NCBI RefSeq assembly: GCF_002813775.1
Contig: NZ_CP020370.1
Location: 6,473,501 to 6,537,500, forward strand
Direction of reading: 5' to 3'
DNA: 64,000 nucleotides
Source: Candidatus Thiodictyon syntrophicum
GTDB lineage: Bacteria > Pseudomonadota > Gammaproteobacteria > Chromatiales > Chromatiaceae
The position numbers and the translations under genes were made by a program. The notes beneath the pieces were generated by a model. The model was given only the letters and a program-made list of their open reading frames with translations, did no database searches and was not told the origin of the DNA. This document shows positions 16,409-20,596 of this stretch, piece by piece (within the stretch, counting starts at the first letter, position 1; the number at the start of each line of letters is the position of its first letter).

Positions 16409-19400
16409 GTGGATAGAGCACTTTCGAGATCACCGAGGGCGCCTGCCGTGTTGGCGCTTGTTGCACTGCTGTTGACGAGCCAGGCACCGGCTCAGGACCA
16501 GAACGACTGGGCGCAACAGGGTCGCGGGGCGTCGGCTGCCGCTACACCTTTCAGCACGCGAACCTCTCCCTTCGACCCACCCACCGACAATACCTTCGTC
16601 ACCGACGACAGCCCTGGACTCGACACCGGCTGCACCTTCGAGAGGGACCCCGAACACCCGCTGACGATCGACGTCTTGATCGATCACCCCGTCGGCGCGG
16701 TCGACGCCAATGGTTATCTCCAGGACGCCAACGCCTTGATCGCCGCGGGCCTGATCCCGTCAACGGTTGAGGTCATACTCCCCGCCTACGACATCGACGC
16801 CCCGGACGAGCAGGACGAGTTCTACCTCAACGGGAACTTTCTCGGGTATTTCACTGGCAGCGACGATATCTGGAAGCTCAACACCTTCGCCATCGATGTC
16901 CGCAAACTGAAGTTTCCGGCGCCGGTGGCCGCGGGTAGCGCCGTCACGCCCGCCGCCAACCGCGTGCAAATCCGCATCGACACCGCGGCTGGAAGCACCA
17001 ACCGATGGTGCATGTCCGCTGACTGGGTCGCTTTGGTCCTGCCCATCGATGTGAAGTACGGACTCAAACTCGAACCGGTCGCGGGTGCCACCAATAGGAT
17101 TACGGTCAACGCCCCCGCGTCTACCGCCACCATCGACGTGATCTACGATGAGGTCGCCGACGCTGACTGCAATATGACTCAAACGATCGGCCCGCAGGAT
17201 CAGTACCCGTTCGCGGGCTCATCCGAGTCGGGATTCGGGAATGTCGCGGGGGAGGCGAAGCTGCGTGTCACACTGAAACCCTGCCCGAGCGGTGGCAGCA
17301 GCGTCGGTCCGGAGGTCGAGGTCAACTGGTCGATTACCGGCACCAGCTTGCAGGGCACCGAGACCTGGACCGGCCTGACCGGCGACGTCACGCTCGAAAT
17401 GCCGGGTCAGGTTGGTGCCTACGACGTCAATCTCGAAGTGTTGCTCGATGGCACGGCATACCGGACGGTGACGCGCAAGTTATTCGTGACCAAGCGCAGC
17501 CCCTTGTTCAAGGTCGGCAACCCACGCCTGTCCTGGTATGCGTTGGCTACCGCCTGGGCGGCCGGCAAGAGCGCAGAAAGCGAGATTCTGACAGCGCTGC
17601 TCGCCGGCACCTACAACTACGGCCAGACGCACTGGCGTTATGGCTATGACTTTGGCCCCGCGCAACTATGCCATTGGACCGAACTCTCGGCCGACCCGAT
17701 CTCATGCGATTACTCCGACTGCTATGTCTTCAGCGACGTGTTCGATAATATGGCCGCGACCTTGGGTGTCGGTGGCCTTGGCGACTACCCGAAAAAGGGG
17801 ATAAACGACGGCAATTTCGTGACTCGTGCCAGTGCTTCTCTCGACCCCGCCTTCACGGGTACGGTGGAGCCGTTCCCGAAGAATACACAGGATTATGATC
17901 GCTATCTGTTTGCCAGCCATAGCTTGCGCACGCGTGGTCCTGTCTACTATGACGCGACCTTCAACCGCACCTATGCAACCGATGACGCCTTCATCGAATG
18001 GAATCTCACCGGTACGATGGGCGCTGATGCGGACGGCACCTTCGAGAGGACCCACGAGGGTAAGAATATCTATTCCCAAACCTCGCCGGCCTACGATCAC
18101 TGGCGTGTGACCAAGGCGTACAAGGTCGCGGCCGGTGGTTCGCCACTGGCAACCGGGGAAACCATGGCAGTCGCACCGACCAGCACCGAATTGACAATCA
18201 CCGGGAATGCCTCCTACGACACCGTTGATGACAATAACGACGGTATCGCCGAGGCAGTGATTGCAAACGTCGAGATCCAGGTACTCACCGCGGGGACCTA
18301 CCTGATCTCCGGGACCCTGGAGAAGAACGGCCAGGTGGTATCGACCCAACCCAGACTTTCCACCCCTCAGCCAACGAGCGACACCATCACCGGTGCTCCC
18401 GGACTTTACACCGCCGTGCTCAGATTCTCCGGCGAGGAGATCTTTCAATCCGGACAGGACGGTCCTTATGACCTCAAGGTCACGGCCTTGGGCAACAGCG
18501 TCGATGAGCGAACCTTCGCGACCCCGGCCTACGCCCATACCCGGTTTGGTGAGCGGTCCGCGCGCGTCCGCCAGCTGACTGACCGTACCACCGATACGGA
18601 CAGCGACAGCCGATTCGATATCCTGCAAGTCGAGGTCGAGGTGGAGGTCGCTGCAGCCGGCGAATACATCCTGCAAGGCACCTTGATGAAGGATGGTGAG
18701 ACCGTGGTGAACGGCTCCACCACCGTGACCCTGACCCCCGGTCAGCATACGGTCGGAGTGCCGTTCTCCGGCGTCGCGATCTTCCGCTCGAATCAGGATG
18801 GACCCTATGACGCCCTGGTGTCCCTGCTCGACCCGGACACCGGGTCCCGGGATGACCTGGCGGGTGTGACCCAGGCTTATCGCCACGGCGACTTCGAGGG
18901 GCGCATCGATCCGAACGGGACACTGACCGATCAGGGGGTGGATTCCAACGCAAACGGGTTGTTCGATCTGCTGCGGGTGACCTTCGGGGCCGATGTCCGG
19001 GCACCCGGGACCTACCTTGTATCAGGAACCTTGCACGACGTCGCCAGGGCCTCGGCAGTGGTCACCGAACGGCTCATGACGTTGTCGGCGGGCGTCCAGA
19101 ACCTACAACTGGATTTCCTCGGCCCCGAGATCTACGCGCAACAACTCGATGGGCCCTACCTGATCGCTATCACGTTGAGAGACCCGGGGACCCAGGAGAC
19201 CCTGGACGGCGTGCGGCTTGGTCAACAGACCACCGCGCACCGCTACACGGATTTCGACCGCAGCGGCGGCACGAGCGCGCTCCGCCTGACCGGAGTGAGC
19301 ACGGACCAGGGAATCGACTCTAATGGAAATACACGGTATGACATCTTGAGCGTGGCCGTCCAAGTTGATATCGCGGTCGCCGATACCTACCAGTGGAGTG

Positions 19401-19831
19401 CCCGCCTGCTCGACGTCAACGGTAAGGAAATCGGCTTCTATTCAGGTAAAGGCAGCCTCGGCGCCGGACTGAAGACTATCAACCTGCGCTTCTCCGGTAC
19501 GACCATCGGCGCCAACGGCATTGCCGGACCCTATTATGTCCGGGGACTTTTGATGTACGGCCAGAAGGGCGCCAATCTGGTCAGCACCAATGTTGCTGAT
19601 ACCCAAGCCTATGCGGCCGGGTTATTCGAGGGTTTCGTCGCGCCTCTAGTCGGCGATCTCGATGGCGACGGCGATGTCGATCGCGACGACATCGATCGCC
19701 TGATGGCCCGCCGCAACATGCCCGCGACCGGGGCCGGCGACCCGATGGACTTGAATGGTGACGGTACCATCAACGCGGTGGACCTGCGTCTGCTGCGACT
19801 GCTCTGCACGCGGCCGAACTGCGTGCCATAG
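16409..19831 (+). CDS. Large secreted dockerin protein with transglutaminase-like triad and four repeat domains
   Basis: The GTG at 16409 has GAGGG seven bases upstream and gives 1140 residues; a TTG at 16382 would add nine. A signal peptide (VLALVALLLTSQAPAQ) is followed by an unassigned N-terminal domain. A region around residues 400-520 contains Cys438 in CDYSDCYVFSDVF, His504 in FASHSLR and Asp515 in YYDATF. That spacing and context resemble a transglutaminase/papain-like fold. Four related domains of about 120 residues follow, each with a DSNxNGxxD-like opening and an FSG...DGPY block. The C-terminus is a canonical type I dockerin with two calcium loops, DLDGDGDVDRDDI and DLNGDGTINAVDL. 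The next gene encodes a cohesin-like protein. The gene is visibly less GC-rich than its neighbours. No exact homologue is recognised. Confidence 0.8.
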   Translation: MDRALSRSPRAPAVLALVALLLTSQAPAQDQNDWAQQGRGASAAATPFSTRTSPFDPPTDNTFVTDDSPGLDTGCTFERDPEHPLTIDVLIDHPVGAVDANGYLQDANALIAAGLIPSTVEVILPAYDIDAPDEQDEFYLNGNFLGYFTGSDDIWKLNTFAIDVRKLKFPAPVAAGSAVTPAANRVQIRIDTAAGSTNRWCMSADWVALVLPIDVKYGLKLEPVAGATNRITVNAPASTATIDVIYDEVADADCNMTQTIGPQDQYPFAGSSESGFGNVAGEAKLRVTLKPCPSGGSSVGPEVEVNWSITGTSLQGTETWTGLTGDVTLEMPGQVGAYDVNLEVLLDGTAYRTVTRKLFVTKRSPLFKVGNPRLSWYALATAWAAGKSAESEILTALLAGTYNYGQTHWRYGYDFGPAQLCHWTELSADPISCDYSDCYVFSDVFDNMAATLGVGGLGDYPKKGINDGNFVTRASASLDPAFTGTVEPFPKNTQDYDRYLFASHSLRTRGPVYYDATFNRTYATDDAFIEWNLTGTMGADADGTFERTHEGKNIYSQTSPAYDHWRVTKAYKVAAGGSPLATGETMAVAPTSTELTITGNASYDTVDDNNDGIAEAVIANVEIQVLTAGTYLISGTLEKNGQVVSTQPRLSTPQPTSDTITGAPGLYTAVLRFSGEEIFQSGQDGPYDLKVTALGNSVDERTFATPAYAHTRFGERSARVRQLTDRTTDTDSDSRFDILQVEVEVEVAAAGEYILQGTLMKDGETVVNGSTTVTLTPGQHTVGVPFSGVAIFRSNQDGPYDALVSLLDPDTGSRDDLAGVTQAYRHGDFEGRIDPNGTLTDQGVDSNANGLFDLLRVTFGADVRAPGTYLVSGTLHDVARASAVVTERLMTLSAGVQNLQLDFLGPEIYAQQLDGPYLIAITLRDPGTQETLDGVRLGQQTTAHRYTDFDRSGGTSALRLTGVSTDQGIDSNGNTRYDILSVAVQVDIAVADTYQWSARLLDVNGKEIGFYSGKGSLGAGLKTINLRFSGTTIGANGIAGPYYVRGLLMYGQKGANLVSTNVADTQAYAAGLFEGFVAPLVGDLDGDGDVDRDDIDRLMARRNMPATGAGDPMDLNGDGTINAVDLRLLRLLCTRPNCVP

Positions 19832-19850
19832 CCTGGACAGACAGGGTAGT

Positions 19851-19889
19851 CACGGACAGCCTTGTCCCGAGCGGGACGGGGCTGCCGTG
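19851..19889 (+). terminator. Intercistronic hairpin between dockerin and cohesin genes
   Basis: CACGGACAGCCTTGTCCCG and CGGGACGGGGCTGCCGTG pair almost completely (one bulged A, two G-U pairs, two-base loop). There is no T run after it, so an attenuator or mRNA-stabilising stem is as likely as a terminator. Confidence 0.5.
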
Positions 19890-19930
19890 GCCGAGTCGAT
19901 CGATCTTCTTACCTCTCATGGAGAGCACAT

Positions 19931-20596
19931 ATGAAAATCCGCCACTACCCCCTCCTTCTGGGAGCCGTCCTGCTCGCGTTCGGTTCCGGCGCACAGGCAC
20001 TCCAGATCTCGATATCACCATCAAGTCCATTAGTTAATCAGGGGGGCAATCTATCAGTAGCGATCGTCATCGCAGGTCTTGCCCCCGGCGGAGCGCCGTC
20101 GCTCGGGAGCTTCGACCTCAATCTCTCTTTCGACCCGGCCATCCTGGGCCTTGACCCCGCGGACGGCAATGGCGACGGGGTGATCGACAGCGTGCTACTC
20201 GACCCCGACGGTCAGCTTGATACCTTCGCAGCCGGGCTGAACCTCGTCGCCGCAGGCATCACGGCCATCGGCACGGTCAACTTGTTTGAACTGTCATTTG
20301 ATCTTCCGATGGTCCTCAATGCCAATCAAGCCTCGTCGTTTACCTTGGCAACCATCAGCTTCCTCGCCGTGGCGCCGGGTACCTCGGCCCTCGGACTCGG
20401 CGTGCTGGCGTTATCCGATGAGCTGGGCAGAACCCTGACGGCAACCCTGAGCAACGCAAGCGTGAGCGTTTCTGACACCCAGGTACCGATCCCATCGCCG
20501 CTCCTGCTGCTATTGGCTGGAGTTGGGTGGCCGGTGGCCCGTGCATTCAGGGAGTGCCGCGCGAGGCGGTGGTCAAACAGTCGGCCCGACGTCTGA
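19931..20596 (+). CDS. Cohesin-like domain protein with PEP-CTERM-like C-terminal signal
   Basis: The ATG at 19931 follows GGAGAG with good spacing; 221 residues. A signal peptide (residues 1-23, ending GAQA) leads into a beta-rich cohesin-like domain with the family blocks LQISISPSS, LGSFDLNLSFDPAILGLD and ALSDELGRTLTATLSNASVSV. Inside it, DPADGNGDGVID looks like a calcium loop. The C-terminus has VPIPSP, then a hydrophobic stretch and an arginine cluster (RECRARRW), a variant of the tripartite PEP-CTERM sorting signal, with 8 extra residues beyond. Together with the upstream dockerin gene this suggests a surface receptor for dockerin-bearing protein. No exosortase gene is in this window. 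Confidence 0.75.
   Translation: MKIRHYPLLLGAVLLAFGSGAQALQISISPSSPLVNQGGNLSVAIVIAGLAPGGAPSLGSFDLNLSFDPAILGLDPADGNGDGVIDSVLLDPDGQLDTFAAGLNLVAAGITAIGTVNLFELSFDLPMVLNANQASSFTLATISFLAVAPGTSALGLGVLALSDELGRTLTATLSNASVSVSDTQVPIPSPLLLLLAGVGWPVARAFRECRARRWSNSRPDV

Follow-up and report, generated by a model that had tools for sequence, protein, structure and literature searches.

Neighboring dockerin and PxP-tailed cohesin genes in Candidatus Thiodictyon syntrophicum suggest plug-and-socket retention of secreted proteins

The two genes and their modules

We examined a 64,000-nucleotide stretch of the genome of the gammaproteobacterial purple sulfur bacterium Candidatus Thiodictyon syntrophicum Cad16T (NZ_CP020370.1, positions 6,473,501 to 6,537,500; hereafter the window), in which two neighboring genes encode a large secreted protein with a C-terminal dockerin (P0001) and a small secreted protein with a cohesin domain and a PxP-type C-terminal tail (P0002) (Table 1). 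The two genes share a strand and are 99 bases apart, the P0002 gene lying downstream; its ATG is preceded by GGAGAG. Such pairing recurs in the host genome and in other bacteria, which suggests a plug-and-socket holding of exoproteins at the cell surface or in slime, unrelated to cellulose. Genomes and loci are cited below by our handles (G and L numbers).

Table 1. Features of the two-gene locus, with positions in the window
Feature	Position	Strand	Basis
P0001, 1140-residue secreted exoprotein (cargo), GTG start	16409..19831	+	Translation; DUF4785_3rd and Dockerin_1 matches
P0001 signal peptide, about 29 residues	16409..16495	+	Read by eye
P0001 immunoglobulin-like (Ig-like) repeats, DUF4785_3rd type	18191..19640	+	PF20943 1e-12, 48.5 bits on whole protein
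Dockerin module of P0001	19646..19828	+	PF00404 on isolated module; AlphaFold model and fold matches
Calcium loop 1, DLDGDGDVDRDD	19655..19690	+	Sequence
Calcium loop 2, DLNGDGTINAVD	19748..19783	+	Sequence
C-terminal C-x4-C (CTRPNC), mark of this dockerin subtype	19805..19822	+	26/28 parsed modules, one module counted twice
Strong intercistronic hairpin	19849..19891	+	Fold z-score -4.30; 0/200 shuffles as good
P0002, 221-residue secreted cohesin receptor (putative)	19931..20596	+	Translation; profile and fold matches
P0002 signal peptide	19931..19999	+	Read by eye
Cohesin domain of P0002	20000..20485	+	25-member alignment A7; PDB cohesins E 3.9e-15; Foldseek on weak model
PxP-type C-terminal sorting tail (PIPSP, hydrophobic helix, Arg-rich end)	20486..20593	+	Sequence; model helix 167-192

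Both 12-residue calcium loops of the P0001 dockerin were complete, as the original prediction had stated. The isolated module belongs to the Dockerin family (PF00404; two F-hand calcium loops in about 60 residues), matching Dockerin_1 at 24.1 bits, over the 22.9 cut-off; scanned as a whole, P0001 scored 20.7 bits, below that cut-off. A calmodulin-like reading of the module was entertained because calmodulins rank high by sequence: they stood beside dockerins in the profile search and, with a nine-member dockerin profile, took all of the best 60 of 85 matches. This reading was rejected on the fold search, in which an AlphaFold model of the dockerin (predicted local distance difference test, pLDDT, 88.7) placed dockerins, or scaffoldin chains containing one, at ranks 1-26, ahead of the first calmodulin-like entry; the best E was 4.9e-3, and none was at or below 0.001. 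Dockerins of this subtype carry, besides the C-terminal C-x4-C, a further pair of cysteines, the first immediately ahead of loop 1 and the second four residues past loop 2, which occurred together in 10/10 (9 distinct) as against 1/18 modules. The count covered 31 modules from chosen loci, of which 3 were unparsed and one stood twice, with weak or divergent dockerins left out and relatedness uncorrected. We infer that disulfide clasps may join the two ends of the module.

As a single query, P0002 matched no Pfam family and no PDB sequence; only profiles brought its cohesin nature to light. A profile of nine neighbors of the P0002 kind retrieved PDB cohesins at 5.2e-9, and a 25-member cohesin profile (A7) gave a best PDB match of 3.9e-15, with cohesin-bearing chains (by name or recall) making up 28/30 of its PDB matches at E ≤ 1. 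Pfam Cohesin (PF00963) was detected in 5/9 members of the smaller profile at E ≤ 1 (best 3.1e-7), P0002 itself being without a match. An AlphaFold model of P0002, weak at pLDDT 62 and built on five sequences, agreed with the profiles: the best 50 of its 423 Foldseek matches were all titled cohesin, scaffoldin or cohesin-dockerin complex, one of these 50 reaching E ≤ 0.001 (7.8e-4), with TM-scores of about 0.3-0.6. By profile, and by fold on this low-confidence model, P0002 is a member of the cohesin beta-sandwich family PF00963, and the outcome that would have refuted the earlier proposal, a lack of the cohesin fold, did not come about. For the proposed PEP-CTERM-like tail the evidence was mixed. 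Its pattern, the single terminal helix at model residues 167-192 (as expected of a membrane-spanning tail), the PxP tail in 22/25 aligned cohesins, and PEP-CTERM (PF07589) matches in 4/9 profile members at E ≤ 1 (best 1.1e-4; P0002 not among them) are consistent with it; a fit of P0002 itself to such models was not obtained, as weighed below. The hairpin between the two genes has no T run; it might control how much cohesin is made relative to dockerin protein.

Pairs, exosortase and cargo in the host genome

The original prediction had proposed a genome search for exosortase and further modules, and searching the host genome (7,738,984 bases, 3 contigs) turned up four more dockerin/cohesin pairs and the PEP-CTERM/exosortase system in the form of one exosortase (EpsH) copy (E 1.1e-73). 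Five dockerin candidates were found with a three-dockerin profile, three strong and two weak (E 0.17 and 0.56), all five adjoining a cohesin-like gene with a PxP tail. A cohesin profile from the three clear partners gave 23 host matches at E ≤ 10, comprising the three partners, three fragments, at E about 0.003 to 0.03, of two genes at the weak-dockerin places, and 17 confined to the end of the profile, chiefly its tail. Reading the weak-dockerin places revealed the fourth pair, an SdrD_B-repeat protein with a VPEP-tailed cohesin, and the fifth, in which an APLP-tailed cohesin accompanies a short secreted protein. Five cohesins stood out in the host genome when the 25-member profile, which includes host members, was used; at E ≤ 1e-5, the host cohesins were five separate genes with one domain each (10/17 first-look candidates scored).

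The cargo varies between pairs, including an ExeM-type nuclease, a pro-kumamolisin-type protease and a VWA protein. Of the other two clear host cargo proteins, one has a pro-kumamolisin activation domain; the other contains an ExeM/NucH nuclease (565 bits). A Pfam scan of ten proteins (nine dockerin proteins and a P0001 paralogue, L138) plus P0001 identified the protease activation domain, nuclease, SdrD_B repeats, a VWA domain (Massilia) and penicillin amidase (from a Methylomonas metagenome-assembled genome, MAG), and no glycoside hydrolase over cut-off. Two Methylomonas cargo proteins had BNR repeats just below cut-off; BNR repeats are also found in sialidases. The two hallmarks of a cellulosome, a multi-cohesin scaffoldin and dockerin-bearing glycoside hydrolases, were both absent: no multi-cohesin protein was detected, and the Pfam matches of the five host cargo proteins contained no glycoside hydrolase family. 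On these grounds a cellulosome was rejected, in line with the non-cellulosomal nature proposed at the outset. The word "scaffold" in that proposal was too strong; with a single cohesin per receptor, the make-up is better described as a one-to-one anchor.

The ExeM family was found at 23 places in 22/276 class genomes, and its C-termini vary in kind: dockerin in 3/23 (the host, G267, and a divergent one in G266), an IPT-type tail in one, RTX-like repeats in one, no recognized anchor in 14, and an end unreadable by script in 4. NF033680 (ExeM-GG) we take to be the GlyGly-CTERM version. Read by eye, a secreted 5'-nucleotidase-like protein with an RTX-like end (L005, 5379-7724) adjoins the nuclease-cohesin pair, suggesting nucleic acid scavenging.

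Recurrence of the pairing in other genomes

Within the host's family (146 genomes, host included), 14 dockerin places were found in 10 genomes, 11 of them outside the host. Four of these 11 adjoin a cohesin; the four were recognized by eye and afterward entered the nine-member profile. In G043, an extra pair was reached through a relative of P0001, its cohesin also read by eye. The class sample comprised 370 gammaproteobacterial genomes at least 90% complete, in each of which part of the first-look candidates was scored (17/116 for the host in the dockerin search), so that weak dockerins can be missed. It yielded 25 dockerin places in 20 genomes, 22 places lying outside the host. With the family-only profile, a cohesin was found within 1.5 kb at 14/22 of these (two places sharing one cohesin), where independent placement would give about 0.001 neighbors assuming 3.3 Mb per genome; a wider profile added two places with a cohesin within 2 kb. 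All 14 strong places outside the host (E ≤ 1.2e-11) had a same-strand cohesin within 2 kb, 12 of them within 1.5 kb by the family-only profile (two sharing one cohesin) and 2 by the wider profile, and weaker dockerin matches were often without a neighboring cohesin.

Across the 370 class genomes, dockerin was present in 20, cohesin in 23 and both in 16 (Fisher 3e-19, a value inflated because many of the class cohesins found were themselves members of the 25-member cohesin profile). The 14/22 count is free of that inflation because its profile came only from the host's family. In the 16 genomes with both modules, which include one with a pair of another architecture (G211), 20/20 cohesin places were on the same strand as a dockerin and within 2 kb; four class genomes had a dockerin without a cohesin match. 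The cohesin gene can follow a gene whose product ends in a dockerin, or precede one with a near-N-terminal dockerin (L039, L046, L047). Distances among dockerins and among cohesins correlated over 23 pairs (r 0.48), which shared ancestry may explain; these were 23 of the 25 aligned cohesins, L025 having been dropped for its divergent dockerin and L064 for distance. Exosortase was detected in 14/16 genomes with both modules versus 108/354 others, and in 6/8 extra carriers.

The pairing recurs in other genera and classes, named carriers with adjoining genes being Methylomonas sp. LW13, a Desulfohalobiaceae MAG and Massilia timonae; the Methylomonas MAG has two dockerins with a cohesin about 6 kb away. 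A scan of named genomes gave at least 40 loci; the 40 listed were picked on calcium-loop patterns and are mostly other dockerins. A PxP-tailed cohesin was present at 4 of these 40 (L063, L064, L065, L081; in L064, 6 kb from the dockerin), and L068, L082, L096, L097 and L100 had cohesin-like matches in larger or otherwise different proteins. On a MAG contig, L066 (695-5693) encodes two similar secreted proteins with a C-x4-C dockerin and no cohesin nearby, and L028 has no cohesin within the 14 kb examined.

Some loci show further arrangements. In G215, the dockerin and cohesin genes are separated by the gene for a second secreted PxP-tailed protein (L044, 740-1468). In G065 (L032, L037), a VPEP-tailed protein without a recognizable cohesin comes after two neighboring dockerin proteins. 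In a Thermoplasmatota archaeon MAG (L082, 8129-12824), large proteins with cohesin-like matches adjoin a dockerin protein, one of them with a hydrophobic Lys/Arg tail end.

Proposed trans-anchoring and alternative explanations

We consider it probable (roughly 0.6) that the two genes work as a trans-anchoring module: a cohesin processed by exosortase would keep the dockerin-tagged exoprotein at the surface or in exopolysaccharide. The model is built on the two folds, their recurrent adjacency and the exosortase gene, all of which the analysis shows. Both proteins would exit the cytoplasm via their signal peptides, and the cohesin protein would be kept in the inner membrane by its PxP tail until exosortase cuts the tail; the cohesin would then move on to the cell surface or to exopolysaccharide, and the latter may be its final place. 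The dockerin would fold around two calcium ions and plug into the cohesin in a predicted calcium-dependent binding, so that cargo lacking its own sorting tail would stay attached to the surface or the matrix. With one receptor per cargo, every neighboring pair would be a specific, private plug and socket. Counted in favor of trans-anchoring is the host paralogue of P0001 (L138, 5143-8466), which resembles the N-terminal part and Ig-like repeats of P0001, and which has a lipase-like domain and, in place of a dockerin, its own hydrophobic Arg-rich C-terminal tail; this tail was rated by eye because no sorting model matches it. The ExeM-family nucleases, with a dockerin at 3/23 places and different ends at others, are counted in favor as well.

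Several observations weigh against the trans-anchoring model. Only 4/11 family dockerin places outside the host adjoin a cohesin, and at 6/22 class places outside the host no cohesin was found; conversely, a dockerin match was missing from 7/23 cohesin genomes, although one of the seven, G501, has a divergent dockerin adjoining its cohesin. The exosortase search found none in G211, G320, G084 and the Desulfohalobiaceae MAG. PxP is lacking in 3/25 aligned cohesins, and the tail of P0002 fits no PEP-CTERM model, being read by pattern and relatives.

Other explanations were weighed on the same evidence. The cleaved cohesin might be released into exopolysaccharide, the pair then acting as a matrix tether that retains or cross-links exoproteins in the slime around aggregates. 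The relevant passages tie PEP-CTERM proteins to exopolysaccharide and floc formation (PMC1569441, PMC9850573) and describe Cad16T aggregates within a layer of extracellular polymeric substances (EPS; PMC5944118), but Haft 2006 (PMC1569441) there suggested the outer membrane as the target, with passage through it a possibility, and asked for experimental tests; we regard release into the matrix as rather unlikely. A periplasmic cohesin serving as export partner or pre-secretion holder of the exoprotein, with no anchor, is improbable: gene adjacency and the one-to-one make-up suit a dedicated partner, as does the lack of detectable exosortase in some partner genomes, but the PxP tail in 22/25 aligned cohesins and the distribution of exosortase (14/16 versus 108/354) argue against it. 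Least credible, and in our view very improbable, is that a calmodulin-like EF-hand pair and a cohesin-like sandwich are chance neighbors with no mutual binding. Calmodulins do rank beside dockerins by profile (all of the best 60 of 85 with the nine-member profile), but 14/22 neighbors observed against about 0.001 expected (3.3 Mb per genome assumed), the fold search with dockerins ahead of calmodulin-like entries and, though shared ancestry may explain it, the distance correlation (r 0.48 over 23 pairs) all count against this reading.

A broader form of trans-anchoring, which we advance tentatively and at slightly less than even odds, is that Gram-negatives widely use exosortase-processed single-cohesin receptors as a modular in-trans substitute for sorting tails. 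An exoprotein would become anchored by gaining a disulfide-clasped C-x4-C dockerin together with a neighboring receptor gene, and a cell could hold at least five mutually orthogonal pairs.

Non-cellulosomal cohesin-dockerin pairs, of which Peer et al. 2009 is reportedly a survey, and PEP-CTERM sorting are both known. Their joint module is undescribed in the open-access literature searched, which leaves most subscription papers outside, and a description may be in print; dockerin and exosortase are mentioned together in a review on anaerobic methanotrophic (ANME) archaea (PMC5244752). The pair from Archaeoglobus fulgidus likewise has its cohesin and dockerin outside cellulosomes and, according to passages of PMC9705933, served to attach proteins to the E. 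coli surface; what sets the present pairs apart is the exosortase-type tail on the cohesin and their recurrence in Proteobacteria with differing cargo. The clostridial cellulosome shares both module folds, its scaffoldin cohesins being the best sequence matches; here, by contrast, no multi-cohesin protein was detected, no glycoside hydrolase was found among the five host cargo proteins, and the dockerin tail is C-x4-C. PEP-CTERM/exosortase sorting, as set out in passages of Haft et al. 2006 (PMC1569441), is alike in signal peptide, PxP tail, exosortase gene and EPS habit, whereas here the tailed protein would serve as a receptor for another protein. ANME archaea have many cohesin/dockerin proteins outside cellulose degradation, with suggested cell-contact roles; these are archaeal, some with up to five cohesins, and the passages concerned mention no PEP-CTERM receptor (PMC9012536, PMC5244752). 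The corresponding passage of the 2017 review states that what cohesin and dockerin proteins do outside the cellulosome is not known (PMC5244752), and a recurrent pair with an exosortase-type tail offers a concrete, testable function for these bacterial proteins, including those of a named Methylomonas strain. A receptor role would also give some PEP-CTERM proteins a reason to exist, and protein display would gain new binding pairs to draw on. T. syntrophicum Cad16T itself is described as growing singly or in aggregates within an EPS layer, associated with Desulfocapsa (PMC5944118).

The remainder of P0001 was also inspected. Scanned separately, 3/4 of its Ig-like pieces matched DUF4785_3rd, every one below cut-off. 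A transglutaminase-like domain guessed for residues ~360-540 (window 17507-18190) was rejected, having no Pfam support; the Cys, His, Asp order of these residues is reminiscent of transglutaminase-like enzymes.

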